From the NCBI GenBank assembly GCA_947184155.2, contig CAMXCT020001025.1:1-64000 (forward strand): a stretch of 64,000 nt of DNA. The letters are read 5' to 3'. Every line of letters starts with the position of its first letter. Position 1 is the first letter of the stretch. Positions 1 to 28,314 of this stretch are shown here, piece by piece. The DNA is from Cladocopium goreaui. Taxonomy: Eukaryota; Sar; Dinophyceae; Suessiales; Symbiodiniaceae. Made by a program: the position numbers and the translations under genes. The notes below the pieces were generated by a model. The model saw only the letters and a program-made list of their open reading frames with translations, made no database searches and was not told the DNA's origin.

Positions 1-436
1 ATCACCATCTCCGATAACAGGGTCAGTTGAAGCGTTGTTCCAGGTGGGGAGCAGGTGCAGGTGCCCGGCCGGGGCAGTTTCACTGGCGCCAAAAATGGGT
101 TGAACGGGGTGGAGGAAGAAGGAAAAGTGTGGAAAAGTGATGAAAAGTGTGGAGAGGAGGTGTCAATTGACATAATTTAAGGCATAAAACTTCTGGTCGT
201 TGGATCAGTTTTGCCATGAGTTTTGCCATGTTTTTTTGTCATGTGTTTCCCCAGTTACTCGTAGTAAGTTAACCGGTTTACCCTTAAAGCCTGCCATGGA
301 CCTCAAAGGTGATCATCGCAGCCGTTTTAGAAACGCGCCCGGATGGCGGGTGAGCAGGATCCTACTGCAGCCACCACTTGTTGGATTCACAGGTGGGGTT
401 GCAGAAAGTCGCTTGATGTCGCTTGCAGAAAGCTGG
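1..436. other. Unassigned left flank
   Basis: No gene could be supported here. The stretch has short open frames on both strands but no recognisable motif and no clear exon. It ends at the left breakpoint of the 2.42-kb tandem duplication, where the sequence gctgggaaacg resembles the internal junction actggggaacg. Confidence 0.4.
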
Positions 437-544
437 GAAACGTATGAGCAAAACTGAGCAAAACCAAGAAAAATTGAGCGCCAGTCGAGGAAAGTCCATC
501 TCAGCACGCCAATGGTGAACTATTGAAGGTTGGGTCAACTTGGG

Positions 545-556
545 TTTTGGCTCAAG
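545..556 (+). other. Relict dinoflagellate spliced leader, copy 1
   Basis: TTTTGGCTCAAG is an exact match to the last 12 bases of the conserved 22-base dinoflagellate spliced leader. It lies 51 bases upstream of the ATG of the frameshifted gene copy. Genomic spliced-leader relics are the known signature of mRNAs that were reverse transcribed and reinserted. The intronless state of the gene fits that origin. The bases further 5' match the leader only weakly, as expected for a decayed relic. A 12-mer can occur by chance, but its position makes that less likely. Confidence 0.7.
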
Positions 557-607
557 CGCTCAAAGGAGAGTTTCTTTTCAAATTGGTTCTGCTAGCTAGC
601 TGGAGCC

Positions 608-2348
608 ATGTACTTTCCGATTCGCTTGCATTTGTTGGAGTTGAGGGCCGAGTCCATGGAAGCCATGTCACTCTTTGTCCCTCTTTGCCATGATTTGATG
701 ATCATTTCTATCACTTTGCAGCTGATGCTGATTGCATTGCTGCTACTGTACAAAATGTGGAGAGCCTTTCTCCATTGGCGCAAAGGAGTGGTGTTTTCAT
801 CCACCCTGGTGCCGACTTTGGACCAGCTGGTTCCATTGCCACATCCAAACCCTGTGTTGCTTTGGGCAGTGGAATGGGATTCAGACATTCGAACGATGGT
901 GGAGGACCTGAAGAATGAAGGGCCCTCTGCGGTGGAACGCTACTGTCAGAATGAGGCCTTCATCCTGAAGCTCAGGAAAATTCTGCGCAACGTCGTGTCG
1001 AAGAACGACATGAGGCGTATTACGGAGGAGGTGATGATGAAGGAAGAAGTGGCGAAGTTTCACACGACCTGTCAGAAATCTGCTAAAGAGGAGGATGAAG
1101 ACTTCAGGGCTTGGCAGGCCATGATGCAAAGCCATCGATGGTCAGGGACCAAATGGGACCCAGCCCACTGAAGCCAATGTTGGTGCCGTGCCAGCGGCAC
1201 AGCAGTGGCAACAAAAAACAGCTGCAGCCCTCGAGGAGGATGATGCAGAAGCGTTGCAGGAGATGCTGGCGGTGATGAATCGAAAACCCGGGGATGCCGG
1301 AAATGGCGCACAAGCCGCAACAGTCCTGCCAGTGCCTGCGGCACCGACAAGAGAACCAAACATTCCAGCGTCAGAACTGGAGGAAGAAGATGCAAGAGCC
1401 CTGCAAGAGATGCTGGCAGAGGTAAATGGTGAACCAACACCAGTGCAGGTGCCACCAGTCGCCATGAGTCAACCAGCGATCCCAGAATCAGAACTGGAGG
1501 AAGAAGATGCGAAAGCGTTGCAGGAGATGCTGGCTGTGATGAACCGAAAGCCGTTTGAGGCAAATGGAGCGACAGCACCAGTGCGTCCAGTGACTCCAGT
1601 GCCTCCAGTGCCTCCAGTGCCCACCACAGAATCTGTGAATGCAGCATCAATCCTTGAAGATGATGAAAAGGCGTTGCAGGAAATGATGGCCGTGATGTCC
1701 CGAAAACCATGTGAGGCAAAGAACGTGCCAGAGCCAGAGCCAATGCTCAGTGAACCTGCAAGTGCAGCGTCAGCCTTTGATGGAGATGACGCAAAAGCAT
1801 TGCAGGACATGATGTCCGTGATGAGCCGAAATCCGCTTGAGGTCCAGGAGGAAGCTTTGTCTGAGCAAAGTGACGACACTGCTGATCTTTGGGCTCAGAT
1901 GGAGGAATTGGAAGACCAGGGTGCAACCCTGGAAGAGCAGGCTCGCAAGTTTGTGTCCTTGTGTATGCCCAAAGGAAAGCTTTCATCTCGTGATGAGAAG
2001 AAAACCACCACTCACTTTTTCATTGGTGAGTCATTTGATGCCGAGGAGGAGCAGGAATTCGACAGTTTCTGGCTTGCCCTGGACGAAGATCTCTGCAACG
2101 GTGCTGAGATGATGCCGCAGGTTCAGAAACTGCTGGACTGCTTCGCCAAGCCGAAAGGCGCCAAAAATCCCAAGGGGCCACCCATGAGCGCCCAGTGTTC
2201 ACATTTCTACATTGGTGACGAGGTGGAAGTCACTGAAGTCACTGAAGTCACTGAAGTCTTCAACAGTACCCAAGAGCAAGATCAGCAAGGCACCGTGCAG
2301 CAGTTTTACATTGGAGATGAGGATGTGCCTGAGATGAGCTTGCCTTGA
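608..2348 (+). pseudogene. Frameshifted copy of the acidic repeat protein gene
   Basis: This is copy 1 of the intronless gene at 3032-4762. The frame opens at ATG 608 and is closed at 1171 after an extra A in the run at 1128-1130 (caaagcc here, caagcc in copy 2). The original frame then resumes and stays open to the same stop at 2348. The rest is nearly identical to copy 2, including an extra 9-base unit that adds one more Pro-Val-Pro step. If the base is real, the product is a 187-residue truncated protein keeping the membrane segment but losing the repeats. An assembly or sequencing error is the main alternative. Confidence 0.8.
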
Positions 2349-2600
2349 CATGCCTTGACTCCAACAACTGGAGAAAAAGGATGAAAAAGGTACTTTGCAA
2401 ATCTTTGCAAGACTTTTCATCTCACTTGCAGTGATCATCCATGTTATCATGGATTTTCATGGATTTTCCATGAAATAAACCATCCAGCTACTCGGGTACC
2501 CCCATGGCTATCCATGGCTCTCACTTCTGGCTATTGATATTCCAGTTTCACCATTTTTCACCCACAAATTTGATGTTTTGTTTCCCATTTTCTCCCACAG

Positions 2601-2662
2601 CCACGCGGTGGCACCATGGCCGCGGCAGGTGGCTATGCCGAGGACACAGCATCCTGTCGATG
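2601..2662 (+). other. Possible small exon, unit 1
   Basis: A pyrimidine-rich tract ending in CCCACAG precedes this segment and GTGAGC follows it, so it has good acceptor and donor signals. It is 62 bases long, 8 shorter than its twin at 5016-5085, which would change the frame. No protein family is recognisable. Confidence 0.3.
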
Positions 2663-2968
2663 GTGAGCATCCGGGGGACGGGGGATTTATGGTGAGCCAA
2701 TTGTGTTAGGAATGTATGGTTAGGGCCAAAGGCTAATACTCAAGATGGACGGATCCCCAAACTTGGGTCCTTATATGTCCTTATTCACATCCGCAACAAA
2801 GACTTGTTGATAGGGTTTGAACTTCAATCCATTCCCATGTCCCATCCTTGAAACAACTGGGGAACGTATGAGCAAAACTGAGCAAAACCAAGAAAAATTG
2901 AGCGCCAGTCGAGGAAAGTCCATCTCAGCACGCGAATGGTGAACTATTGAAGGTTGGGTCAACTTGGG

Positions 2969-2980
2969 TTTTGGCTCAAG
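2969..2980 (+). other. Relict dinoflagellate spliced leader, copy 2
   Basis: Same 12-base TTTTGGCTCAAG as at 545-556, placed identically 51 bases upstream of the ATG of the intact gene copy. The relic was therefore present before the tandem duplication. Confidence 0.7.
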
Positions 2981-3031
2981 CGCTCAAAGGAGAGTTTCTT
3001 TTCAAATTGGTTCTGCTAGCTAGCTGGAGCC

Positions 3032-4762
3032 ATGTACTTTCCGATTCGCTTGCATTTGTTGGAGTTGAGGGCCGAGTCCATGGAAGCCATGTCACTCTTT
3101 GTCCCTCTTTGCCATGATTTGATGATCATTTCTATCACTTTGCAGCTGATGCTGATTGCATTGCTGCTACTGTACAAAATGTGGAGAGCCTTTCTCCATT
3201 GGCGCAAAGGAGTGGTGTTTTCATCCACCCTGGTGCCGACTTTGGACCAGCTGGTTCCATTGCCACATCCAAACCCTGTGTTGCTTTGGGCAGTGGAATG
3301 GGATTCAGACATTCGAACGATGGTGGAGGACCTGAAGAATGAAGGGCCCTCTGCGGTGGAACGCTACTGTCAGAATGAGGCCTTCATCCTGAAGCTCAGG
3401 AAAATTCTGCGCAACGTCGTGTCGAAGAACGACATGAGGCGTATTACGGAGGAGGTGATGATGAAGGAAGAAGTGGCGAAGTTTCACACAACCTGTCAGA
3501 AATCTGCTGAAGAGGAGGATGAAGACTTCAGGGCTTGGCAGGCCATGATGCAAGCCATCGATGGTCAGGGACCAAATGAGACCCAGCCCACGGAAGCCAA
3601 TGTTGGTGCCGTGCCAGCGGCACAGCAGTGGCAACAAAAAACAGCTGCAGCCCTCGAGGAGGATGACGCAGAAGCGTTGCAGGAGATGCTGGCGGTGATG
3701 AATCGAAAACCCGGGGACGCCGGAAATGGCGCACAAGCCGCAACAGTCCTGCCAGTGCCTGCGGCACCGACAAGAGAACCAAACATTCCAGCATCAGAAC
3801 TGGAGGAAGAAGATGCAAGAGCCCTGCAAGAGATGCTGGCAGAGGTAAATGGTGAACCAACACCAGTGCAGGTGCCACCAGTCGCCATGAGTCAACCAGC
3901 GATCCCAGAATCAGAACTGGAGGAAGAAGATGCGAAAGCGTTGCAGGAGATGCTGGCTGTGATGAACCGAAAGCCGTTTGAGGCAAATGGAGCGACAGCA
4001 CCAGTGCGTCCAGTGACTCCAGTGCCTCCAGTGCCCACCACAGAATCTGTGAATGCAGCATCAATCCTTGAAGATGATGAAAAGGCGTTGCAGGAAATGA
4101 TGGCCGTGATGTCCCGAAAACCATGTGAGGCAAAGAACGTGCCAGAGCCAGAGCCAATGCTTAGTGAACCTGCAAGTGCAGCGTCAGCCTTTGATGGAGA
4201 TGACGCAAAAGCATTGCAGGACATGATGTCCGTGATGAGCCGAAATCCGCTTGAGGTCCAGGAGGAAGCTTTGTCTGAGCAAAGTGACGACACTGCTGAT
4301 CTTTGGGCTCAGATGGAGGAATTGGAAGACCAGGGTGCAACCCTGGAAGAGCAGGCTCGCAAGTTTGTGTCCTTGTGTATGCCCAAAGGAAAGCTTTCAT
4401 CTCGTGATGAGAAGAAAACCACCACTCACTTTTTCATTGGTGAGTCATTTGATGCCGAGGAGGAGCAGGAATTCGACAGTTTCTGGCTTGCCCTGGACGA
4501 AGATCTCTGCAACGGTGCTGAGATGATGCCGCAGGTTCAGAAACTGCTGGACTGCTTCGCCAAGCCGAAAGGCGCCAAAAATCCCAAGGGGCCACCCATG
4601 AGCGCCCAGTGTTCACATTTCTACATTGGTGACGAGGTGGAAGTCACTGAAGTCACTGAAGTCACTGAAGTCTTCAACAGTACCCAAGAGCAAGATCAGC
4701 AAGGCACCGTGCAGCAGTTTTACATTGGAGATGAGGATGTGCCTGAGATGAGCTTGCCTTGA
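3032..4762 (+). CDS. Intronless acidic repeat protein with N-terminal membrane segment
   Basis: A 576-residue open frame without introns; I do not recognise the family. Residues about 30-55 form a hydrophobic stretch (ITLQLMLIALLLLYKMW), so membrane anchoring is likely. Five acidic repeats of about 20 residues follow, of the form LEEEDAKALQEMLAVMNRKP, separated by Pro/Val/Ala-rich linkers. The C-terminal part has three related short motifs (HFFIGES, HFYIGDE, QFYIGDE) and a small TEVTEVTEV tandem. The repeats look like short amphipathic helices, so a binding or scaffold role is possible but is inference. The start is the first ATG after the spliced-leader relic at 2969-2980, and the stop is TGA. 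A frameshifted twin lies upstream. The 2.5-kb unit probably arose as a retrocopied mRNA and was then duplicated. Confidence 0.82.
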   Translation: MYFPIRLHLLELRAESMEAMSLFVPLCHDLMIISITLQLMLIALLLLYKMWRAFLHWRKGVVFSSTLVPTLDQLVPLPHPNPVLLWAVEWDSDIRTMVEDLKNEGPSAVERYCQNEAFILKLRKILRNVVSKNDMRRITEEVMMKEEVAKFHTTCQKSAEEEDEDFRAWQAMMQAIDGQGPNETQPTEANVGAVPAAQQWQQKTAAALEEDDAEALQEMLAVMNRKPGDAGNGAQAATVLPVPAAPTREPNIPASELEEEDARALQEMLAEVNGEPTPVQVPPVAMSQPAIPESELEEEDAKALQEMLAVMNRKPFEANGATAPVRPVTPVPPVPTTESVNAASILEDDEKALQEMMAVMSRKPCEAKNVPEPEPMLSEPASAASAFDGDDAKALQDMMSVMSRNPLEVQEEALSEQSDDTADLWAQMEELEDQGATLEEQARKFVSLCMPKGKLSSRDEKKTTTHFFIGESFDAEEEQEFDSFWLALDEDLCNGAEMMPQVQKLLDCFAKPKGAKNPKGPPMSAQCSHFYIGDEVEVTEVTEVTEVFNSTQEQDQQGTVQQFYIGDEDVPEMSLP

Positions 4763-5015
4763 CATGCCTTGACTCCAACAACTGGAGAAAAAGGATGAAA
4801 AAGGTACTTTGCAAATCTTTGCAAGACTTTTCATCTCACTTGCAGTGATCATCCATGTTATCATGGATTTTCATGGATTTTCCATGAAATAAACCATCCA
4901 GCTACTCGGGTACCCCCATGGCTATCCATGGCTCTCACTTCTGGCTATTGATATTCCAGTTTCACCATTTTTCACCCACAAATTTGATGTTTTGTTTCCC
5001 ATTTTTCTCCCACAG

Positions 5016-5085
5016 CCACGCGGTGGCACCATGGCCGCGGCAGGTGGCTATGCCGAGGGCAGTGGAACACAGCATCCTGTCGATG
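5016..5085 (+). other. Possible small exon, unit 2
   Basis: Same segment as 2601-2662 but 70 bases long. It is flanked by TTTTCTCCCACAG and GTGAGC. One frame (MAAAGGYAEGSGTQHPVDG) is open through the donor. It could belong to a gene that continues to the right, where 5293-5360 also has a protein-like plus-strand frame (PVMPARSPFMRIAIGGAV) ending at a TGA. Confidence 0.3.
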
Positions 5086-5282
5086 GTGAGCATCCGGGGG
5101 ACGGGGGATTTATGGTGAGCCAATTGTGTTAGGAATGTATGGCTAGGGCCAAAGGCTAATACTCAAGATGGACGGATCCCCAAACTTGGGTCCTTATATG
5201 TCCTTATTCACATCCGCAACAAAGACTTGTTGATAGGGTTTGAACTTCAATCCATTCCCATGTCCCATCCTTGAAACAACTG

Positions 5283-6960
5283 AGTACCCAGTGATGCCAG
5301 CGAGGTCGCCATTTATGCGCATCGCAATTGGTGGAGCTGTCCCAAAAGGGCCGCGCTGAGTAGGAGCCCCTGAAGCAGGGCCTGCCCCTGGAGGAAGAAG
5401 TGAAGGTCGCCAGCCAGTTCGATTCTTGAACAGGAAAGGCAAGAAATGACCCTCAGTCAACAGAGACATGGAGAGACTGATACTCCAGTTCTGCTGCGGA
5501 TTTGATGATATGTGGGGCCTTTATCTCCTAAGTATGATGCTGATTGTACAAAGCTGATTGTTTGATTGTTTGCTTTTGGTTTTTGTGTTTCCGTTGCGGT
5601 TGTTCCTTTTGTTTCCTTTTGTTCTGTTCGCTCGCCTGAGGAACAGCATCTCATTCCAGAGCTGTGGCCGAGCAGCAACACTGTCAAACTCAGCAGGACG
5701 TGGCTGGTATAAGTGGGGATATTTCTGCCAAAAAAAAAAGCACCAGCACAATTGAAACATCAGCCGACCTACTGTTTGTTATCAGAAGAATATCAGGATT
5801 GATTATAATATATCAGGCGATCAATGGTGATCAACAAGTTTGAGAGTCTCTAAGCTGATGGCAGTTGTAATGAAATCTTTCTCAGCAAGTAGCATGACCT
5901 CTACACAATTGATCACAATTCTACCCACTTTTTTCGTGACCAACTTGACCAACTGTCCATGTTATCATCCTCGGTGCATGCTGAGAGCAGCCGTAGGAGT
6001 GCGATCTTCGATTGTCCAGCAGGTTGTCGATAGAAGTGGCCGCTTGGATCCAATATGATACAGTGATATCATGTTATATCAGTCACTATATAGTATATCA
6101 GTTGTCTCAGTCATATCAATGGTTATCTCAGATTATATCAGCTATATTGCTTGTAGACATCAAATTGGTATAAATTGGATTGAGTATAGAGAGTTGAATG
6201 CATTGAATGGAGGAAAGAGGAATCAAATGTATCCATCCAGGTAAGACAGCAAATCCAATCCGGGTAGACCTCCGACAGCTTGTTTCGTACTTTAATTTAA
6301 CTGACTTTAACTGACTTTAATACGGTGTTTTATTTGTTATTTTTCTCGCTGTATGTTTATCTTTTGATCAATACTTTCCTTCTTGCTGATATACTGGTAC
6401 AGTACGTATAACATTGTATAACATGATTTCATCATATTACCACACAAGTATACACTCGTATATACTCGCGTTTCTTATGGTCAGAGTATGCCAGAATGTC
6501 ACAAATCAATCCCGAGGAAAGATCGTCACTGCCACAAGGCCCTCCCAGGGGACAGTCCTTGGATGGTAGACCTCACGTCCTGATGATCTCGTCCTGGTCA
6601 TCAGGACGTGAAGTCTACCAGGTCTACCAGTTGACCTGAACAAGAATCATCTGACATTTGACATCTTGGCCCAGGGGCGGAGTATTGGCTGATCTTCCTT
6701 GCACGTGTCCCAGACACGACGCCATACCGAATCATCGGTGCAGTTCTATCGCCAGGCTGCTGACATGGAGCTTTAGAGCTGTCCTGCGAAAGTGTAGGTC
6801 GAAAGGGGAGCAACCCCCAACAGCACCAGATAGTGAGTTTTTTTCCGAAGATGAGACTATGAGATCTGGCACAGCTTAACAGCTGATGGTACTGCAAAGG
6901 CAGCACCGGTTTCACCCTGGAAAGCTGCTTGGCTTCAATCTGAAAGCACAAGATTGGCCA
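5283..6960. other. Long stretch without a supported gene
   Basis: Mostly AT-rich, with no recognisable protein motif except the short frame near 5293-5360. A short hairpin-forming inverted repeat lies near 6565-6615 (CACGTCCTGATGA and TCATCAGGACGTG). Several open frames of 60-150 codons exist on both strands but lack coding character. Confidence 0.4.
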
Positions 6961-6986
6961 TAGTGACTCCGCTGAGATTATGGCAG

Positions 6987-7031
6987 TTGTTGGGCGGCTC
7001 GGATCATCTCGGATCGCCGCAACAACCCGGG
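6987..7031 (+). CDS. Possible upstream kelch exon
   Basis: The frame reads GSSRIAATTRG and would join in phase, through a GA donor at 7032, to the exon at 7177. That gives the AA..G..YICGG pattern of a kelch blade. The acceptor would be the AG at 6985-6986. The motif match is short, so this exon is tentative. Confidence 0.3.
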
Positions 7032-7176
7032 GAATGGTACGCAAGCGAGAAAAATTCTACGGGTATTCCATAGCATTCCAGCATTTTAAGGAAGTATTGA
7101 CCACTCTGGCAGTTCAGTTTTTTAAAACTTCTTCGAAGATTGCTGGCAGTGAAGGGTGATAAATTGCTAATTGCAG

Positions 7177-10100
7177 GTGTCATCAACAAGCGGCTCTACA
7201 TTTGTGGTGGGTTGGATGAAAGCAGGCACTGGGAAGTCGATTCTGGTCCCCAACCGTTTTTGGCACATCCAACTACTGGCTGCTGGTTTCAAAATGTTTC
7301 ATGTTTTTCATCCACATTATTTTACAACATTTTACAACTATATTTGGGATATTCCCCAAAGACCCTCAATATTTTTTGGCATTTCTTGAAACTGTCAATC
7401 AGCAAATGGATGCAAATTGTGTCTTGAACTTCGGTTTTCAGGATATTTGTGTGGGAAATACAGACAGACATACTCGTTGGGTATTCAACGTATTCAACAT
7501 CATCTTCAACCTCATTGTCGTCGTCATCAGCACCACCATCACCATCACCATCATCATCACCATCACCATCACATCATCATCATCATCATCACCACCATCA
7601 TCACCATCACCATCACCATCATCATTGCCGTCATGTTCAAGAAAGAGGAATCAGGACACGTTTGAAGCATCGGGATGCCATCAGGCAACCTTTGAATTCA
7701 GTGGAGGCCTTCACTCCACCAGGTCCGGGATATCCGGGATCGGCGCTGGGTGAGGGCGACTATAGGGGATATCGCCGGGATATCAATGGATAAATATCAC
7801 ATATATCAATGGATAACAATGGATAACCAAGTTAGGGCAGTCCTCCTTTCTCTTCCAGATTCTTATTGGGATTTCACCCCGCAAACCTTTGACATCCTTA
7901 GACTATGGGGAATGGGGATTGAAACATCAAAACACAGAGTTTAAATCTAAACGCTAGAGTGCAGAGTTGATATCGCAAGAAAATTGAATGCCTCAAAAAG
8001 TTGCGTCCTTGAGACAGAATTCGCTTTTTGACACACCTGACTGGTGGGTCATGTATCAGCGCCCTGCATGGAGGATTCAGTACCACATGTTGTTTGGATC
8101 GTCGACTGGCTCCTTGTTGTCGTGCCTTTTTTTTCTTAATCGTTTCTGCAGGAAACCCTGTTTTTCCCGGACAGCTTGTTTTTAGCATGTGCGATTCAGC
8201 ATAAGTTTTGCAATGGAATGCAAAGACTCAACACGACCAATCGTCCCTTCTGGATATCCAAAACTATTTGCATCTATGAATCATTGTTTGCATCTTTGAA
8301 TCTGAATCTATTTGCCATTGTTTGCATCTCTCCCAGATTTGTCAAAAGTACTTTTACATCTTCCGTTTCGGTCTCGGCCGCCAGGAGTCTCGGTGCAAAT
8401 GCCCCACTGCACTCCACGGGAAAGACAGGCCACAAATGTGATGTCCTGGAATGGCGATCTTTGCGGTCTGAAGTCTGGCATGGCATACCTCTTTGCAGAC
8501 CATGATCAAAACTGGAGGTTTCCATAAATGAGGGTATCCTCAAAATGCTTGGTGTATAAGGGAAAAGCGGAAAATCCTTTATTAAGATGGATGATATAGG
8601 GCTACCCCTATTTCAGGAAACCTCCATTTTAGCTTGATATACGTACCTTGATTATTCAATGTTGGAACTGGAACAGAAATGGAAAGCGCAGTGTCGATGG
8701 AAAGCGCTTGGAATTGGGAAGTCACTTTGGGGATGGGATGGCAACTGGAGAGTTGCTCATCACAGTTGTTGACTGGACCTAGATACAGAGCAACCCCCCA
8801 AAACGACAGGTTTTGTCTGAAATGAGCTAGGAACATACCAAAACCGATGATCAAAACTTGAGTTCCCTCTAAATGACACTCAAACCAAGGCAGTCATTCA
8901 TCAAAAGACTAAGCCATCATCCAATTGCGCCATGAGGCTGCAGCTGGGAACGGCAACTGGCAGGCCCAAGCGGGCCATCCAGGATGGTGTCGATGGTTGG
9001 TCAGATGAGTAAGAAATGCTTTGTATGATGTCACGGACATGTGACATGTTTAATCTTGCAGAGATTTGCTGAGTTTCCTTCCTTTCTTACCCATAGGATC
9101 CATGGTGCTGCTATCTATATATATATATGGTAACATGTACCATCAATATACCCCCAATGTTAGCATATATACCATACATGGATCCTATGGGTTATGTTTT
9201 CCAGAAGCTGAAGAGTCTTAAAGGCCCTTTTGGTGAACAGTCGAGGTTCCTTTTGATGTGAACCTGTGGGAGGTAATGCCTGCCATGGCAGAGAGACGGG
9301 GCTGGCCCGCGGCCGTATCCTTACAAGGCAGGTGGATCAGCGGTTGATGCGGTTGATGCAGGCCTCTATTTTGAAGAACCAAGAGCCAAGTGATGTGGAA
9401 TTGAACCACGCCAGGTCCCGACCATCCTCTGTTTTTGCAATTTTTGGCGAAGGGGACTTTGAAATTGCTTCGTCATCTTTTACAATGATGTTATGATATG
9501 TTCTGATGTTGAACAGTTTAACTACTCGTACCAAAAGTTTAACGACTTCGTGGAGCGGCCAAAATTTTCACCCAGATCGGCGTTGGGAGAAACCCGATGG
9601 ATTCCTAGCCTGGGAACATCCTGACGCCCCAAGAAATGGCCAGCCCCTTCTGTGGCAAGGACTTCTGTATGTTTGTGGTGGAAGAGACGAACAACGTGAA
9701 CCCCTGAGTAGCCTGGATCTCAGGGAAAAACACCGGCTGCTCTCAGTTTTACAATGTTTTACAATGGTTTACCTTGTCCCTTTGTCGTCGCATATGTTCG
9801 AAAAAGCGCTCATGATTGGCTTCTTGTCCTTCAAAAGGCCTTTAAGTATCTTTAAGTTCTCCTTGCCAGTCCAGGCATGATGACTGTCCAAAAACATTCC
9901 ACTCGCTGAGGTGTGGAACGCTTGAATCATTTCCCGAGCATTTGGCTTCCGTTTGCGCCTCAGCTGCCGTCGACAAAAATGAAAATTTGCGGAGTTGCGC
10001 TGATTTCGATCTGAGGCTTCCGGCAATGTCATCCCAACGCGCAGGTGGAGTTGGGAAATGTTGAGAAGAGAGGTTGAACGGTTGTGGTATGTTGTGGTTG

Positions 10101-12047
10101 TTGATCAAGATCTATGATATTCATTTGATATTCTATGATACCATATCAATCCATATCACCATATCCATTTACCAACTAGTTTGGTGTCCAAACCAGGAGA
10201 TTCAAGGGATTTGACCCTATAATATCCATATGGAAATTACTGCCTTTTCATGACATATACGTCATCAATGATCCACTATAGATACTCTTACATACTATTA
10301 TTACATACTATCGTTTAGAGAATGACAACTATGTTATCGACAGTCCAGTGAAAATCACTCCATTTCAGAATGATTCATGATACTTGAGGGTTTTTTTGGC
10401 TACAATGAATGGAACAAAACATGTCCATGTCGCGCCTGAAAAGATGCGACAGGGAGTGGATCAAAGAAACAACGCTGAAGCACCGCCAGTGATTCTGCGT
10501 GTTTGGCTGAAAGATATGTTGAAAGTAGTGTTGGTGACAGCTTTCCCTATCTTTCCCTTGGTTTTTAGGATCACCATTCCCAAAATGTCGGGGATGTTAC
10601 CCAGTCGCCAGGTGCTTCTGCTGCGGCCTGCGGAGGGAGGCTGGGTGGATCAAATGCTTCGGGCTGCAGACAAGGTTGAACACCACTAATGTAAGGTGAG
10701 GTTCAGTCCCTTCAAGGTAGGAAGGTGTAGGACTATCTACTATATTCTACTATCATATAATATATAATAATTATATCTATTCTCCTGTATCACTCAGACC
10801 ATCTCCACCAGTGGATCAACAATTGATCAACGAAAAACAACAGGAAAACTCGGCCATGGAACACCTCAATCTGTGGCTCTGGGTGGAGGCTTTATGTTTG
10901 TGGTGGCGCCTTTGGTGCTCAGATGTTGAATTCGGTCGAGCGCTTCGACCCAAAGGCTGGAATTCCAATGGAGAACCTGGGATGGAAGAGTCGTCAAGCG
11001 CTACATTGGGGAAATGTGTGGAATATGCATGAATATGCGTTTATTTTGTACTATATAATATTAGTATTGAATTAATATAATATATCGATAATTAAATATG
11101 TTTCTTAATCATGGTTACTCTCCCAAATTATCTAAATGTCTTTAGGTACTGTGACACGTGTCAGGTGGCGAATGTATTGAACAGCCAGGTTGGAACTTGG
11201 GAAACGTTACCTCCAATGACGGCACGCCTGGGGCCCAGTCTTGGCAGCATTCCAGGCCTAAGCTGCCAGCGGATGTTTTCAAAACAATGATTTAGCTCTA
11301 TTATTTCAGATGATTTCAGATTCCTTTCACAACCCGAATGATTTTTTAACAGATCGTCCAATAAAGTTTAATAGCTTAATTAAGATGTCTTTCTTCAAAT
11401 TATAAGATAGATTTCCTGCGGAAACAACCTGATGCCTCCTCTTGCTGCCTCTGAATCTCTTGAAGGCCGCGCATACGTGGCTGCGGCAACCATCGCTGGC
11501 ACCATTCACGTCTTTGGCGGCAGTGATGGGGGCCAGGCTTGGACAGTTAGATCATGCATGATCCATTTGGGATTGTTTCAGCCATTGAAGAAAAACCTCT
11601 TAATTGGTGAGGATTTAATCATGAATTCTAGGGATTAGATGAGGTGTTAACTATCAAACATATGTGCTTATTGATAAATGATGGCTCAGGCTTATTTTGC
11701 AATGGGGGATTATGCTAACGCTTGGAGATTATGATCACCTAGAAAGATAACCCGTGATGAGCTACGTCTTCGTTTAAAGACTGGCGCACCTTAATACTAA
11801 GTACCTCTAAATACAAAAAACTCCTCCAGGTGGTGATTATTAGGGGGAGGACCCCGGTTTAGTATTAGGGGGAGAGGACTATATACATACCCCTCATATG
11901 TTCATTGTCTATTACTGTGTATATAAATGGAACCTGTTGCCTTCCACAGCCGGTCTGCGTTGCGGCACGCGGCCAGTGCTTGCTGTCCTCGGAACGTTTT
12001 GATCCGACGCTGAATACCTGGAGCCCCTTACCCGACATGAATGAGAG
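7177..12047 (+). CDS. Multi-exon kelch-repeat protein gene
   Basis: Exons, with phase checked across seven junctions: 7177-7225, 7685-7722, 9241-9327, 9660-9710, 9911 to about 9975, 10844-10955, 11189-11225, 11466-11536, 11977-12047. They spell consecutive kelch blades. Hallmarks are RLYICGGLDES, PLNSVEAF, NLWEVMPAMAERRGW, LLYVCGGRDEQ, SVERLNHF, RLYVCGG, SVERFDP, GTWETLPPM, AAATIAGTIHVFGGSDGG and SSERFDPTLNTW. This is the GG, aromatic and NxVE-FD periodicity of beta-propeller blades, so a protein-binding propeller is expected. Six of the seven checked introns start with GC (7226, 9328, 9711, 10956, 11226, 11537) and one with GT (7723). An exon completing the blade between about 9980 and 10840 is not clear; 10612-10677 (GASAAACGGRLGG) is a candidate but lacks the expected tyrosine step. 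The 5' and 3' ends of the gene were not found. Confidence 0.85.
7520..7625 (+). repeat. CAT/CAC microsatellite in a kelch intron
   Basis: Imperfect (CAT)n and (CAC)n run inside the GC-AG intron 7226-7684 of the kelch gene. Long poly-His or poly-Ser frames read here are artefacts of the repeat. Confidence 0.9.
9088..9193. mobile_element. Foldback element, CCCATAGGATCCATG family, copy 1
   Basis: The ends ACCCATAGGATCCATG and CATGGATCCTATGGGT are inverted repeats about 75 bases apart. The element lies in the kelch intron 7723-9240. A closely related sequence in opposite orientation occurs at 31003-31090. No coding capacity, so it would be a non-autonomous MITE-like element. Confidence 0.7.
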
Positions 12048-12249
12048 GCGGGTGGAGGGTGGTTGGGAAAACATGGGGGTAAGCCCAGAGCGTTGGAGCG
12101 TTGGAGCCTTGGATTAGTATATTGCTTGGATGATCTTCTCGGGTCTGGTCTTCTTTTACTTTCTTTGTTCAGGGCTTGGTGAATGTCCTGTCCTGTGGGA
12201 TTTTGAACATCACTTTGAAGTATTTGTTGGAGATTTCTTCTATCCCCAG

Positions 12250-12420
12250 TAACTATGGGTGATGTTCAATTCAAAGGTTTACATGGTTTACCACCCCCTG
12301 TTGTTGAAACACTTGAACCACCTCAAGCAGCAGTGACTCACGTTTCTCAAACGGTGAGTCGCCAGGAGATCTGGTGCGGCCTCGGTGGCCTTGATGATAT
12401 GAGGATCACCAGCCTGGCTG
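12250..12420 (+). CDS. Possible downstream kelch exon
   Basis: The plus-strand frame contains AAVTHVSQ followed by EIWCGLGGLDDMR, resembling a kelch blade, directly after the last confident kelch exon. A GTGAGT lies inside the stretch and no acceptor gives the required phase, so the boundaries are unknown. Confidence 0.35.
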
Positions 12421-13881
12421 GGTGCCCCTGCATTTCGCTAGCAATAGAGGGGCCGGTTTGGTATTCTATCTATCATCATTTACCTGTTGTTAAAGGGGTA
12501 AACAAACCCTTCTATTAATCAACCAACCAATGGGAAAAGGACATCTATGTTTGTCACATTCCCCATGCTCAAGAAAGAAAGAAAGAAAGAAGTGAAGCTG
12601 AATATGAAGCTTAGATTCTAGTCTCAGTTCCCAGTTATGTGTTGCCTGTTTAAATTCTTGGTCGGTCAAGAATTTCAGAGTGACATACCAGGTCAAAAGT
12701 CAAAAGTGTTGATTTCCAAAAAGGATAGTCGGATAGTCTATAGCTCAAATGACCAACAAATCTGTGTGTGTGCGCAGCAACATTTGGAGTTGTAGGGGTG
12801 TATATTCCCTTGACGTGTTTGATCTCCTTCAAGCAGCTGCTTTCAGAGCTGCAGGCCTTCCCGATTTCTCGACACTGAACGGTTTCACCGAAAGCAACGC
12901 GCCGCGCCGGGCGCTGAAGTTGTATCAATAGGAGACTCTCCACAGACATCAACAAGGAACCATCACCAAAAAAGGGAAGGTAATGTCCAGAACAGCTAAT
13001 AGATTTTGGTAGATTTTTGGTACCCAGGATATCCCAAGAAACTGGTCTATTATCCTAGACTTGTGGTGGATGGTAGTGGATGCTTGGAGGAATGCCAGTA
13101 GATGAAAGAAGATCATAGTGGCACAGTGGTTATTGACAGTGGATGACAGTATAGCATAGTATAGCAAATATGATAATTACTGTAATTAGTAAACATAGGA
13201 TAGTGGCAAAACCAGATAAATAAAACCTCTCCCTCTCCCCCCCTGTCAACAAGCTCCGCACGGTGAGCGCCTTAAAAATGGGCTGCCTTGGGGGCATTTG
13301 GGCCGAGAACTTAGTCATGTAATGTGGATGGATCAATACCTATCGAATGCATTCGAATGCCATGTTTGATGGGGATGATCACCTCAAAATACCGGCTTTT
13401 CGGGGCTTCATCAGAATACCATGCTTTTGACCCACAGTCATATTATGTATGTTAGCCTCAAAAATGGTAGAAATTCCCCCTCCCACATTTCTTGAAGGCC
13501 ACAGTTGTCTTGTCAAATGTCCAAGGAGGAATTCAAGGATGCTGCTAGATGCCTCCCATGTTTGAGGCAGACAATTTTGCGACACGTGAACATAGGATAC
13601 AAGATCCACATTCTTTGATCTACATCCACTATAGTCACTATATCTCAAGTATGTGTGGTCGCGTATGTCTTTTTTTGACATGACTTCGGGTTTGGGATAC
13701 GTGAAACGTCAGGAACCACAGATGTTGGTCCTTTTGCCGATGATTCAGATTTGGGGTATCACTGGCATATGATCCCTTCAAAAAATGGGGAAGAAATTGA
13801 CCCATGCTTGGCTGATTCTTTTTCTGGGTATGTTTTTTTTGTGATGTTCTATCTTGAAGGATTTTCAATGATTTTTCGCAG

Positions 13882-16800
13882 AGATTTCACAACGGAGCCC
13901 CCAAGAGTTCTCCTACCTCGGCCCCGTCGAGCTCAACTGGCCCTGAGCGCACACCGCAACGCGAAACCCGCGCCGCGCCGCCAGGAAGGGGAAGGCTTTG
14001 GGACAGTAGATGGCAAGTCTGGAACAATGTTTCAATGGACAATGATTGGACAATATCTCTCAAAGATTGGAAAATATCTCTCAAAGATTGGAAACTGTGA
14101 AAAGGATTAGACACTCAAAGATCATTTATGGAAACTGATGAGGCTCAAATTCTTGAAACATATATATATATATACAATATATATAAACGCTGTTCTCGAA
14201 ATTCACACCGTTCGAAACATATACACCTTTCTAATCCTTTCTAAACATATACACTCTGAACACAGACACACTTTTTACATCTTTTGACAATCTGAAATAG
14301 AATCCAATAATGAAGATGAAACCAACCAAACAAGGAGGATGTTGTAAAGAGTTTGAATAGTGGTTGATCCCTGGTTTAAAGGCTGTGGAAGTGAGTGACC
14401 CAGCGATTCCAGTGACAACCGTTTCGGTTCATGTTTCCAAGTCCTTGAACCGTTTCAGATAGCTACATCACATAATCCACAACAAATACTACGCATTTAC
14501 ACATTTGATGTGCTTTGCAGTATAGTCACATGTACATGCCAGAATGATAGATGATATAGATTCTGAATCATATTTGTATTATGCTGACATCTCACATCTC
14601 TAACTACCTATCTATACAATCTACCTATATCTTAGTCCTTATGTTTACCTATCAAATCCATCCAAGATCCATCGATCTAAGATCCATCCAATCCCTGTAG
14701 CAATTTTCTGTTTATGTTTACATCCTCTGCGGACTCCTCTCTGCAAAAAATAAATGTCCCAAAATGGCTACATTAATTGGCCCATTTGTCTAGGTGTTGT
14801 TTCATGTGAGATTCATCCAATTTCATAAACCATCCCCAAGTCATCACCATTTTTAATGGGGGTTGGATTTCATTTCAACCATCCCCAGTCATAGATCCGA
14901 TTTCTGGCAGCCGGGTTGCCCACATTACTATTGCTGATCGAATATGATAGGGGGTTGTGTACCTTCAAATAAACCTATCGGGGACTATGAGAAGCCATAT
15001 CATCATCGGGATACACAACCATGAAAATAGGTTAATAATATGCATTTCAAAATGGGATAGTGCATTATCATAGGGATTATTATTAATTCGCCTTCCAGGA
15101 TGGATTTGGCCTTTGCCGTGGGCAACGCTGGAGCGTCGACCGACCTGGGCCTCGCCCGGACGTTGACGGGACGCGGGGAAGCTAAGTCCCCTTGGGTGCT
15201 GGTTTGTTACTGGTTTATAGTACAGTAACCCCCAACCAAAAGGGATGGACAAGTTAAATCCTACAGAATCCTACGCTTCATAGATTGGTGGTACTGGAAA
15301 ATGAGTTGTTATCTCTGTTGGGTGTTAATTACTATGTAATAATGTAATACAATATATATATGATTATATATGTATTTATTGATGATTTACCATTATGATT
15401 TAGCCGCTTTAATCGTTCTGGAAAATGTTTATAAGTAATTATCAGTGTATATATATAATTTTATATATCGGTTTACTTGCAATATACCATTGTTTATCAC
15501 CTTAGTGACAAGTTGATAACTATTTTTTTAAAAAAAAACATAAACTATAAGCCCAATGAGAATGCCCAAGATAATCATACAGGTTTGCCAGTATAATTAT
15601 AATGTATTACTATTTTTTGGACCCCCCAATTCATCAATCTGGGGTTGACATTGTTGGGACCTATATTTCGTAAGTTGGGACCGGGATTTACCACTAATTA
15701 AAATGCTGCTTAAACATGTTGGCAAAGCCCACATATTGGATTATAAGTTGAACCACGTGGATGTTCATCAGCAAAAATTGTGTGCAAAGCCAACGAAAAT
15801 GAGGGGGTATGGGTCAAACCAAAAACCACGCTTTGCTTTTGGAGAAAATCGTCGCAACTTTTGCCAGGAAATGACGGGATGTACAGCAATGCAAGGTACC
15901 CCCTACCAAGACAGTTTCCCCAACTTTGGAACACATTGATTCATTGATGCATCCAACTGCATCCGAGTGTCATGGTTTCAAGGTTTCAACAAGGATATGT
16001 TTGACAAGTTCCGAAGTTCTTTCCATGATGTGTCGATTCCTGGAGTTTGCTGTAAATCAACAATATATTACATTGTATGACAATTTGTTGATCTCTACAG
16101 GAGACAAGTAAACGACGCTAACACTTGTGTCCATGCTTGGGTTTTCCATATCGTTTCATGGGATGTGGTATACCTTCGTCAATCCCGCAGCGCGATCCAG
16201 GCAACAATGGGCTTCAGCGCAACTTGCGCTTAAAGGTCCCTAGTCGATCACTTCCAGGCACAGACCAGGTGGCTTGAAAAACTCTTCTCCCATGGTTCAC
16301 AACGTTTTTGGAACCGAGGAATGCTTTTTTGGGTGAAAAAGGGTCACTGTAATCATCACAATTGAATCATAATAATGCCTGCTCCCAACCTTCCCACGGT
16401 GAAATATAACGTTTCGCACAGGCACTGCCTCGTCAAGCTCCGAATCTCAGCATTCTGGAAAAGGCGGAAGCGAAAAGTGGATGCCGAGAATGGATAGTCA
16501 ACCACAATGATGGCCCGAAATACCAGTGAAAAGTCAGTTATAAGTCACCATTTAATTATGTATAGGAAATGATATGTTTTTCTATGGAATGATAAGCCCA
16601 TTTATAAGCATGTAAACTGCCAATATTCACTTTGTTTGTTAAAGGACTTACTTTGACTGTTTGGATCTCTTTGGCAAACTAGGCAGCAAACGACCATAGT
16701 AGATCATAATAATGCAACATCGCCCAGTTGTTTGATGCTCACCCACTGAAATCACTGCTTTTCCATCTGTACTTTGACCTTTCAGTGTTGCTGAAATCCC

Positions 16801-16926
16801 TTGACGGTAGGGAGTGCTAGCCTGGCTGCAGGAAAAGCGTTGGCTGGCTTTGCAGCTGCTGCGGTGGCTGTAGCACTTCGGCTGATTCTTTGGATATTAC
16901 ATGGAGGGCATGCGGTGAAATGTTAA
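13882..16926 (+). CDS. Unrecognised gene with C-terminal membrane segment
   Basis: Plus-strand exons that look coding: 13882 to about 14006 (Ser/Pro-rich, NGAPKSSPTSAPSSSTG), about 15102-15183 (MDLAFAVGNAGASTDLGLAR), 16191-16235 (RDPGNNGLQRNLRLK, phase 0 at both ends), 16422 to about 16492 (ALPRQAPNLSILEKAEAK) and 16811-16926. The exons at 16191 and 16422 join in phase across AAAG|GTCCC and CACAG|GC. The last exon reads LAAGKALAGFAAAAVAVALR, followed by a hydrophobic run and then HGGHAVKC and a TAA at 16924-16926, giving a tail-anchored single-pass membrane protein. I do not recognise the family. Whether 13882 and 15102 belong to the same gene is uncertain. Confidence 0.5.
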
Positions 16927-17940
16927 TTCAATGTTTCAACACGAGTTTTAGCCAGATTACGTTTCATTCAAATTGTTGTTTCTGGTTTCAGATAACGTTG
17001 ACCTCTGATTAATAACCCACCCACCCCACTGCGTGAAGTTAGGATTACCACTACATTATCGAATGCATGATTGGAACATTTTGGAACTTTGATTATTTTA
17101 TTTAGTAAAGCCCTCCCTCTCCCCTACCTCCCCCCACTTGTTAACAAGGTGAACACATTCTATAGGGTTGAACCCTGTTTTGTTTTTTCTTCCGCATCCA
17201 AAGTGTCAGGCAGCTCTCATTAGATAATTAGTAACTTTATTTAATCATAGATCAACATCACTTGCTATTATTTTCCACCAGGGTACAGACGTGCACCAAT
17301 CCCAGACTTAGGTTTTAATCAAGACTTGCAGCCACCCCCCCCCCCATGTTCAAGAATGAGAACCATATGCTCTTCAGTACAGTTTTCCCCCAAGAATGAA
17401 TCAGTGGCTTGTGGTGTATTCATCCCATTGCTGAAATCCCCAGCATTGCTGGTGAAAACATCATGGTCGGTCGACCATTCTTTCCAGTGAGGTTTTCCCA
17501 AGAATCAATCCATGGAAAAGCATTGTGTTGTGAGGTGTTACATGGTAGAAATTCCATGGCTGAATAAGCTTAGATTGCCTGAAATATGCTTACTTCAATC
17601 CAATAAAACACAGTTGTGGTTCTATAATTTTATAAATTATGATTTTATTACATACAAAAGATGCGCCAATAAATCTAATGCATTTTTTTTATGATGTATA
17701 TGATATTGACAATTGTATTGTGATATATCGTGATAATCAATGGATCTCTAAGACAATGGTGGTTTCTTAAAATGTTGGATCCCCAAAGCTTTCCAATACT
17801 AAAATGGTGAAAAATCTTGGATGATTTGGGGGTACCTCCATTTCAGGAAACCTGCATAGAATTGTAATATATTCTAATAGTTTCTGAATTATCTATGTAC
17901 AAATATGTATATATAATTTGATTTACCCACTGGGGATCCC

Positions 17941-18015
17941 TAACATAGATGTGGAAAACCCATGGTTTTCCTATGAACACACTCTACAAATGGTTGATTT
18001 TCCACATCTATGTTA
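17941..18015. mobile_element. Short foldback element (TAACATAGATGTGGAAAA ends)
   Basis: TAACATAGATGTGGAAAA at the left and its reverse complement at the right enclose about 40 bases. It resembles the inner part of the TACCCTCTGG family but lacks those ends. Confidence 0.6.
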
Positions 18016-18171
18016 CTTTACGATAGGCTATATGATAAAAAAATAAACGTGTTATTAGAAAATAGATTGTATATAAGTTATATATATATATATACTATAT
18101 ATTATATGGTGTATCTATATTTTATTACTATCTATCGATTGGGGTTTGTCCCTTGCTGGGTCCCAGGCGGC

Positions 18172-18252
18172 CCGTGGCCTCCGACGCCTCCGACGGATCC
18201 GGCGCCGGCAGGCGGCAGGGCCTCAGGCGCTTCACCTGGCTCCGGCTGCATG
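18172..18252. other. GC-rich island, possible exon
   Basis: An abrupt GC-rich block in AT-rich surroundings, preceded by GGGTCCCAG on the plus strand. All three plus frames and at least one minus frame (EPGEAPEALPPAGAGSVGG) are open and Pro/Gly/Ala-rich. Strand and product cannot be decided. Confidence 0.3.
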
Positions 18253-18283
18253 AGGGTCATTATTGGTAAATAATAGCGGTCAT

Positions 18284-18392
18284 TACCCTCTGGTTATGTC
18301 AAAATAGCTATTGAAAATGATCATAGAAATAGTGGATTTTCCCATTAATAGCATGGTGATTTTCAATAGCTATGTTAGTTTACCAGAGGGTA
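18284..18392. mobile_element. TACCCTCTGG foldback element, copy 1
   Basis: Begins TACCCTCTGGTTATG, ends CCAGAGGGTA, and the inner arms (ATAGCTATTGAAAATG and its complement) are also inverted. About 109 bases with no coding capacity. Confidence 0.8.
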
Positions 18393-18492
18393 TCACTAAT
18401 GATCATTAATGGTATGGTATGGCAATTAATAGTGGACATGATCATTTGTGATTAATGATGGAATGATGAATGGTGATTAGTGGAATGATCAA

Positions 18493-18610
18493 TACCCTCT
18501 GGTAAACTAACATGATTGTGGAAAATCACTATTTTCAACAGGTAAATCAACTAATTATAACTTATTATAACTGGCCATTTTCAGTAGCTATGTTAGTTTA
18601 CCAGAGGGTA
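18493..18610. mobile_element. TACCCTCTGG foldback element, copy 2
   Basis: Begins TACCCTCTGGTAAACTAACA and ends TTAGTTTACCAGAGGGTA. It lies 100 bases from copy 1, in a cluster of related fragments between 18.28 and 18.81 kb. Confidence 0.8.
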
Positions 18611-18706
18611 CCATCATTTTTGATGGGTAAATCAACTATAGCTATTATGTAGTAATTATAAACTATAGCTATGAAATAACCCCCTATTTTTTAATGGACT
18701 AGAATG

Positions 18707-18812
18707 TATAAACTAACATAGCTATGGAAAATCCACATTTTTGATGGGAAAATCAACGAACTAAATGGGCCATGTTCAATAGCTATGTCAAATTGCCAGT
18801 TGCCAGAGGGTA
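18707..18812. mobile_element. TACCCTCTGG foldback element, truncated copy 3
   Basis: Lacks the first TACCCTCTGG bases, starts inside the arm (AAACTAACATAGCTATGG) and ends GCCAGAGGGTA. Confidence 0.65.
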
Positions 18813-19133
18813 GTCCATGATATCCCATTATATTTCCATTATATCCCATTTGATATTATGATTGATATTTCCCGATATAGTCCATTACCATCGAGTCATT
18901 GTTCATGGTTAATGGCTGTTTAATGGATGCTTAAGCTATTTAATGGCTAGTTTATGGATGGTTCATGGATATTTAATGGACGTTACCAATGGATACACAA
19001 GCGGGAATTCATCCACCAGTCATTGTTCATTCCATGATTCGTCCATTTTTCTAGTGTGTCTGTATTCACAGCCACAATCTAGTTGATTAGTTTTATCATC
19101 CATCCTATTCCATTATAGTCCATTCATATTTTA

Positions 19134-19210
19134 TACCCTCCAGTAATTTAACATAACTATGGAAAATCACCATGTTTAATGGGAAAGCTCACTATAAATG
19201 GCCATTCATA
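19134..19210. mobile_element. TACCCTCTGG foldback element, half copy
   Basis: Left arm only: TACCCTCCAGTAATTTAACA followed by CTATGGAAAATCACCATG. The right arm is not seen. Confidence 0.55.
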
Positions 19211-19905
19211 TTTTATATTTGGTGATTTCTTTAGAGTGGAGGATTCCCAAGTCACCATGGCTGTTGAAAAATACTAAAATTGGACCTATAATTTGGATGA
19301 TTTGGGGTACCTACCTCTCCAATTTAGGACACTTCCATGTATTTAGAATATATGTAGATCTATATATATATATAGATGTATGAGGTATAGGTCTGAAAAA
19401 AATCTTTCACTTGGAAGAATCTAGATTTTAGAAAGTAAGAATTCTGTTGTGACTGGTTCTGGAGGTTTTACCTTCACTTTTGTGGTGTTCATTTGCAAGA
19501 ATGGGTCGTGGCTCACCATGGAGAATGCGTCATTAAAGGAATACAGCTTGCATCGAAAGGATTGGCCCTTTGAATGAAAATCAGTGCCAGGCTAAAAGAT
19601 TTTGGGGAAGTATTGTCAGATGTGGGGTGAAGGCCACTAATCTCCGCCAAAAATATCACTAAGATAACTTAGAATAATATCAGAGTTTATAAATCTAGTG
19701 ATATTTTTAATCCCTAAATATTATCCTTAGTGACAATTGATATTATCCCTAGTGATGAATGGATATCCACTAAATATCCATTGAACATATCTGCAGACCA
19801 TCGACATCGCAGGTGAGCACCAAGTTGAGCCCCGAATCCTTGGGTCGCTGGGCGATTGCGAAGTTGGAGGCAACACTTTCAACAAGACACTTGTAGGGAT
19901 TTAAC

Positions 19906-24079: not shown

Positions 24080-24183
24080 TACCCTCCGGTAAACTAACAT
24101 AACTATGGAAAATCACCATTTTTAATGGGAAAATCCACTATAAATGGTCATTTTCAATAGCTATGTTAAATTACCAGAGGGTA
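24080..24183. mobile_element. TACCCTCTGG foldback element, copy 6
   Basis: TACCCTCCGGTAAACTAACA at the left and ATTACCAGAGGGTA at the right; 104 bases. Confidence 0.8.
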
Positions 24184-28208: not shown

Positions 28209-28314
28209 TACCCTCTGGTTATGTCAAAATAGCTATTGAAAATGGCCTATTTATAGTTGATTTTCCCATTAAACATGGTGATTTTCCATAGCTATGTTAG
28301 TTTACCAGAGGGTA
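28209..28314. mobile_element. TACCCTCTGG foldback element with 8-bp target duplication
   Basis: TACCCTCTGGTTATG to TTTACCAGAGGGTA, 106 bases. It is flanked by GATCCACA on the left (28201-28208) and GATCCAAT on the right, which match at 6 of 8 bases. This marks the exact element ends. Confidence 0.88.

Follow-up and report, generated by a model that had tools for sequence, protein, structure and literature searches.

A probable spliced-leader-tagged retrogene, later duplicated in tandem, at the start of a Cladocopium goreaui contig

The first 64 kb of contig C1025 of the dinoflagellate Cladocopium goreaui (the window; 64,000 nucleotides of a genome assembly of 1.166 Gb in 6,202 contigs) carry, near the contig start, two head-to-tail units, each of which contains a gene without introns preceded by the last 12 bases of the 22-base dinoflagellate spliced leader (DinoSL). 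With a probability of about 0.94, this gene is a leader-tagged retrogene that was derived from a trans-spliced mRNA and later duplicated in tandem, as a sequence-only reading of the window had proposed. Two results carry this assignment: the introns of a relative in the same genome, on contig C3891, are absent from the window gene, and the leader remnant stands at the very start of the homology between the two. The features of the locus are as follows.

433-2856, + strand: tandem unit 1, 2,424 bp
2857-5282, + strand: tandem unit 2, 2,426 bp
545-556, + strand: relict DinoSL of unit 1, last 12 of 22 bases, TTTTGGCTCAAG
2969-2980, + strand: relict DinoSL of unit 2, last 12 of 22 bases, TTTTGGCTCAAG
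557-607, + strand: 5′ untranslated region (UTR) of unit 1, identical to that of unit 2
2981-3031, + strand: 5′ UTR of unit 2; over 2981-3042, 49 of 58 aligned columns are identical to the first exon of the C3891 relative
608-2348, + strand: copy 1 of the putative retrogene, with the reading frame interrupted by one additional A at 1128; stop at 1169-1171
3032-4762, + strand: putative retrogene copy 2, intact open reading frame of 576 codons

The two units differ by 11 substitutions and four indels (1, 9, 1 and 8 nt) and meet at a 3-bp microhomology, CTG at 2857-2859, that is common to both outer ends. The sequence-only reading, which had placed the pair at 437-5282, was right about two units of 2.42 kb and slightly off in their start. 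In both units, the last 12 leader bases are matched exactly and are separated by 51 bases from the ATG (608 and 3032), as that reading had stated; the three bases 5′ of TTTTGGCTCAAG are GGG, where DinoSL has CCA. No further site with at most one mismatch to TTTTGGCTCAAG was found on either strand of the window. The open reading frame of copy 2 runs uninterrupted over 576 codons, compared with a longest stop-free run of 246 codons in 200 simulated 64-kb sequences with the composition of the rest of the window, a null that replaced one built, circularly, from the gene's own composition (mean longest run 378 codons, largest 655). Besides copy 2, stop-free runs longer than 246 codons are limited to copy 1 and to low-complexity frames at 51.0-52.8 kb. 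The locus comprises two same-strand single-exon copies in succession; in C1025, the frame of copy 1 is shifted by the A at 1128.

When the genome was searched in six frames with the protein, 18 matches were returned, which fall on the window copies (three), the copies on a second contig, C1913 (four), and contigs C3891 (eight), C1046 (two) and C594 (one). Spliced alignment places window positions 2979-4558 on C3891:283866-296722 in 21 collinear blocks, with 1,320 of 1,541 aligned bases identical (85.7%), 39 inserted and 20 deleted. The 20 introns inferred in this relative, none of which is present in the window gene, measure 57-525 bp in all but one case, which is 7.1 kb long; donors are GT, GC or GA and 17 of the 20 acceptors are AG, under a scoring scheme that favored AG acceptors and these donors. 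The remaining three acceptors, which lie in the repeat-rich middle, are not placed precisely. Beyond position 296,722, a further piece suggests, by eye, one more intron and the stop codon. The sequence-only reading had advised looking for an intron-containing parent in the same genome; a relative with introns is thus present there, and C594 carries a second intron-bearing paralog. On C1046, a deleted and degraded intronless fragment (~56,154-56,847, minus strand; four blocks ~76-83% identical) is possibly an older retrocopy; the leader word TGGCTCAAG was not found on the gene's strand in the 16 kb examined there.

Homology between the window gene and C3891 begins directly after the AG that ends both the leader remnant and the putative acceptor of the C3891 first exon. 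At this junction, shown for unit 2 (2969-2980), the retrogene reads ..TTTTGGCTCAAG|CGCTCAAAGGAGAG.. and C3891 reads ..TGCTGCCAACAG|CACTCAAGCGAGAC.. (in short form, ..TTTTGGCTCAAG|CGCTCAAA and ..CCAACAG|CACTCAAG). The leader remnant is joined at the position of the relative's putative trans-splice acceptor, as that acceptor is read from C3891. In the 120 nt upstream, C3891 and C594 are alike in 90 of 114 aligned columns, a score reached by none of 1,000 shuffles; no similarity between the retrogene and C3891 is detectable over the same 120 nt (183 of 1,000 shuffles score as high). This pattern is the one predicted for copying from a trans-spliced mRNA.

Taken by itself, the match to TTTTGGCTCAAG is only moderate to weak evidence. 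The 12-mer is expected 0.0079 times by chance on the + strand of the window, and 84 of 2,000 shuffled leaders have a match of at least 12 bases in the window on either strand. In the genome, the 12-mer occurs 2,945 times (1,485 on the forward strand) compared with 113 times for its reversed control, the 15-mer CCATTTTGGCTCAAG 1,191 times compared with two, and the exact 21-base dinoflagellate leader 172 times compared with zero. Six of the first ten 12-mer sites examined lie in three paired direct repeats. Because the 12-mer is common throughout the genome and in repeats, the motif needed an independent test, which the intron-bearing relative provides. At one pre-specified position, the chance of the 12-mer is ~1.3e-6, or ~1 in 800,000, as calculated from the 1,485 forward-strand sites in 1.166 Gb. 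An internal 13-base leader word, GTAGCCATTTTGG, is present at 14,759-14,771 on the minus strand with no gene recognized beside it, and illustrates the level of chance matches.

The frequency of leader words, both in the genome and in shuffled controls, together with their residence in paired repeats, would favor an ordinary single-exon gene that happens to stand next to a chance or repeat-borne 12-mer. This explanation is scarcely credible given that the 12-mer lies exactly where homology with the intron-bearing relative begins, and that the flank at 1-544, in a search that skips simple repeats and very common words, matched only the window locus and C1913, unlike a repeat-borne site. An intronless gene would also result if cDNA had recombined into a resident gene and removed its introns in place by gene conversion, which is possible in principle, and the intron-bearing relatives could then be paralogs of the converted gene; conversion would, however, be expected to retain the upstream DNA, and the upstream DNA of the window gene is unlike that common to C3891 and C594, which makes this route highly improbable. 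The direction of change could be reversed if C3891 and C594 had gained introns of the introner type and the single-exon gene were ancestral. Short inverted-repeat elements that may be introner-like miniature inverted-repeat transposable elements (MITEs) are, by eye, common in the window. Against such gains, C3891 and C594, which each have eight inferred introns over window 2980-3530, share four at identical positions (after bases 3110, 3289, 3399 and 3454), and the leader scar calls for an RNA step. Over the 429 columns present in all three sequences, the retrogene and C3891 share 388, C3891 and C594 365, and the retrogene and C594 358; three sequences cannot root a tree, and the use of C594 as outgroup assumes roughly equal rates. 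With C594 outside and four intron positions shared, introns would have been present in the common ancestor already, so that they look ancestral and the intronless form derived; the probability of intron gain is close to negligible.

The tandem pair itself could be an assembly artifact in which two haplotypes were laid end to end. Only 11 aligned bases distinguish the copies, the window begins at a contig end, and the locus is present twice in the assembly, on C1025 and on C1913. On C1913, window 1-19,486 recurs at 228,118-247,628 (minus strand) with 98.6% identity, 80 mismatches and 185 gap positions, and this second occurrence probably represents a haplotig or an unmerged overlap. In C1913, however, the locus is internal to the contig and both units are present in the same order, with no substitution relative to the window over the first ~5.9 kb. 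The four indels in this region affect homopolymers and a 9-bp minisatellite: the A at 1128, which is missing in C1913, the CCAGTGCCT minisatellite of each copy, and one A-run. The tandem pair and its copy-specific substitutions are thus reproduced on a second contig, which renders the artifact very unlikely; the two contigs may share reads and are not fully independent.

Divergence between the retrogene and C3891 is 0.384 per synonymous site (dS) and 0.110 per nonsynonymous site (dN), a dN/dS of 0.29 over 484 codons, none of which is a stop; two sub-regions give dS values of 0.254 and 0.346 with ratios of 0.28 and 0.22. The eight coding substitutions between the tandem copies comprise six synonymous changes, ~0.016 per synonymous site, and two that are not, a split with P of 0.002-0.02 under five assumed transition shares. 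A dS of 0.384 compared with six synonymous differences places retroposition as the older event and duplication as the recent one. These values suggest that coding constraint was kept over the history of the retrogene-C3891 pair.

Several observations weigh against a leader-tagged retrogene. Only 12 of the 22 leader bases are kept, and the 15-base DinoRL, CCATTTTGGCTCAAG, by which transcripts are recognized (PMC12014239), is absent. No poly(A) tract was found on the 3′ side of the retrogene, where only AAAAAGG runs are present, and a search for a target-site duplication gave none that is convincing. The C3891 blocks, when joined and read straight, lose the frame in the third of them, as block ends are inexact. 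The C3891 protein also appears to end before the retrogene protein does, and the 3′ ends differ; C3891 may therefore be a sister of the true parent, which itself may have been lost or have gone unseen. Where C3891 has its putative acceptor, C594 lacks an AG (..CAACCAT|CACTCG), so that any acceptor used by C594 is at another site. Frameshifting indels are present in three of the four assembled copies, namely both in C1913 and copy 1 in C1025; the C1913 copies have no frameshift at the 1128 site and each has another frameshifting indel in the 9-bp minisatellite. The frameshifts, one in C1025 and one in each C1913 copy, may be errors, and the notion of copy 1 as a pseudogene was dropped given that C1913 lacks the A at 1128. 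In addition, the retrogene lineage has 12 nonsynonymous and seven synonymous changes compared with two and five for C3891 (129 codons, nine of them unresolved), numbers that are small but may point to relaxed constraint on the N-terminal part of the retrogene.

The 3′ side of the retrogene contains the following features.

2374-2390, + strand: two AAAAAGG runs of copy 1, 26-42 nt after the stop
4788-4804, + strand: the same two AAAAAGG runs in copy 2
4843-4925, + strand: dispersed repeat 3′ of the retrogene, 36 matches outside the locus among 40 scored of 220 candidates

The AAAAAGG runs resemble the AAAAG/C "mini poly(A)" described at dinoflagellate polyadenylation sites (PMC2488372) and constitute a candidate 3′ feature. 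No alignment was obtained between the 3′ UTR of C3891 and that of the retrogene. In a search for the empty insertion site, which skips simple repeats and very common words, the 5′ flank (1-544) gave four matches, all in the window locus and C1913, and the 3′ flank matched these and the dispersed repeat. An 8-bp direct repeat, AACTTGGG (537-544 and 2760-2767), was rejected as a target-site duplication: it is situated past what may be an exon of the next gene, described below, and can be due to chance.

The steps that would lead to the present locus are as follows. An ancestor of the C3891 gene would have been transcribed, trans-spliced with DinoSL at its putative first-exon acceptor, and cis-spliced. 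The mature mRNA would then have been reverse transcribed by a retroelement, with the last 12 leader bases left through truncation or later change, and the cDNA inserted at an unrelated site upstream of an apparent Kelch-type gene. Much later, the 2.42-kb DNA segment with the retrogene was duplicated head to tail, and the junction has the 3-bp microhomology. Judged from sequence, the retrogene may be expressed at present.

The predicted product of 576 amino acids has one N-terminal hydrophobic segment and, by eye, repeats around ALQEML and FYIGDE. Domain and solved-structure searches gave no match above the cut-off, and a scan of viral and prokaryotic contigs with six short query peptides gave no relative. 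The protein is an uncharacterized, probably membrane-anchored repeat protein.

The 3′ part of each unit (2601-2662 and 5016-5085) has, by eye, the makings of a first exon of the next gene, with a pyrimidine-rich acceptor, an ATG and a GTGAGC donor. Its two unit copies differ by an 8-bp indel, so that at most one of them keeps the frame. The gene 3′ of the units may be a Kelch-type gene at 7-11 kb, where scattered Kelch-like segments are observed (Kelch_1, best of three E=1.7e-4; the others 0.043 and 0.083). That all other genes of the window are split into small exons was checked only loosely, through these scattered segments and the stop-free runs given above. An Rfam scan of the window gave no family at the gathering threshold. 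An element of ~95-115 bp, possibly a MITE or introner, recurs at ~18,284-18,392, 22,430-22,545, 24,080-24,183, 28,209-28,314, 38,519-38,611 and 55,922-56,019; most copies have inverted ends close to TACCCTCTGGT..ACCAGAGGGTA, and matches are also found around the C1046 and C1913 loci.

Elsewhere in the genome, many leader words are organized in repeats. Among 100 listed of the 1,191 sites of the 15-mer, 44 fall into 22 pairs on the same strand at a spacing of 5-11 kb; one of the pairs may belong instead to the C191 array described below, and no opposite-strand pair has this spacing. Nineteen of 30 15-mer loci examined (L037-L066) have surroundings in common with another and lie in repeated elements. 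Eleven pairs were examined, nine with the 15-mer (L003/L004, L041/L042, L043/L044, L045/L046, L049/L050, L055/L056, L057/L058, L059/L060 and L064/L065) and two with the 12-mer only (L005/L006 and L007/L008). In all of these, the leader word is part of a direct repeat, of 104-132 bp in ten and 168 bp in L007/L008, and in nine of the 11 the two words are 6-10 kb apart. Seven of ten downstream copies tested display an A..B-A-B layout, in which the first repeat has a second one on either side of it; the B-A-B layout was not shown for L045, L055 and L060, and L008 is outside the ten. Of ten adjacent open stretches, with element interiors covered for up to 1.5 kb, two match RVT_1 (E=3.1e-6 and 4.6e-5) and one matches Phage_integrase, a tyrosine recombinase family (E=0.0022), all below the Pfam curated cut-off; the other seven have no Pfam match at E 0.01. 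DIRS elements with the A..B-A-B layout, and with a reverse transcriptase that fits Pfam poorly, are described in Symbiodinium (PMC5890265). Several of the repeats examined thus look like DIRS-like retroelements with spliced-leader words inside their terminal repeats, and such elements may account for a large share of the leader words of the genome. The main text of PMC5890265 does not mention "spliced leader", and a literature search by title found no report of a spliced leader in DIRS elements or in a long terminal repeat.

Were these elements also to supply the reverse transcriptase and to capture trans-spliced mRNAs through the shared leader, by base pairing or template switching, the heavy recycling of dinoflagellate mRNAs would be explained and the window retrogene would be a product of this capture. 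The idea is speculative and rather improbable, and the 5′ flank beside the window leader, which matched nothing outside the locus and C1913, lends it no support here. As a separate observation, C191:445133-449917 contains the 15-base leader word on one strand at spacings of 999, 629, 633, 630, 630 and 1,263 bp and is probably an array of spliced-leader RNA genes.

The tagging of recycled mRNAs by relict DinoSLs is well described (PMC6050394, PMC12014239), and the locus is a clean and unusually well-documented example of this known process, with no new phenomenon. In PMC8045281, the leader was sought with a 9-base word up to 500 bp upstream of genes. Without the relative, the 12-base remnant would prove little because repeated elements of this genome frequently contain such words, a caution that bears on retrogene counts from short-word leader searches; with it, a 12-base remnant can be genuine. 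The locus would escape the 15-base transcript rule of PMC12014239, yet it fits the genomic definition, with 12 exact bases, including the 3′ end of the leader, located 5′ of the gene in genomic DNA.

Similar to the DinoSL-tagged retrogenes of PMC6050394, the window gene has a leader relict 5′ of its coding sequence, 51 bases from the ATG and inside the -50 to -100 zone given there, and an intron-bearing relative in the genome. Unlike those recognized in PMC12014239, its relict is 12 nt long rather than the 15-nt DinoRL. It differs further in that all 20 inferred introns are gone, the junction is mapped to the base, and a later tandem duplication is present. As in the tandem single-exon genes of Polarella glacialis (PMC7245778), for which relict DinoSLs are reported in transcripts, the copies are head to tail with highly similar spacers; there, the highlighted blocks encode peridinin-chlorophyll proteins, rhodopsins and ice-binding proteins, whereas here there are only two copies of a gene without a known domain. 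In Amphidinium carterae, tandem, intron-poor, highly expressed genes with leader-like motifs are described (PMC2488372), and the RNA step is not shown there, in the text available, through an intron-bearing parent. Most dinoflagellate retrogenes are orphans known by a leader match without a parent, with parents found for 6.4% and 9.8% of the retrogenes in two Symbiodinium genomes (PMC6050394). Here, the scar of the leader can be compared directly with the introns that were lost and with the putative acceptor of the relative, and the present locus can therefore be used as a reference case.

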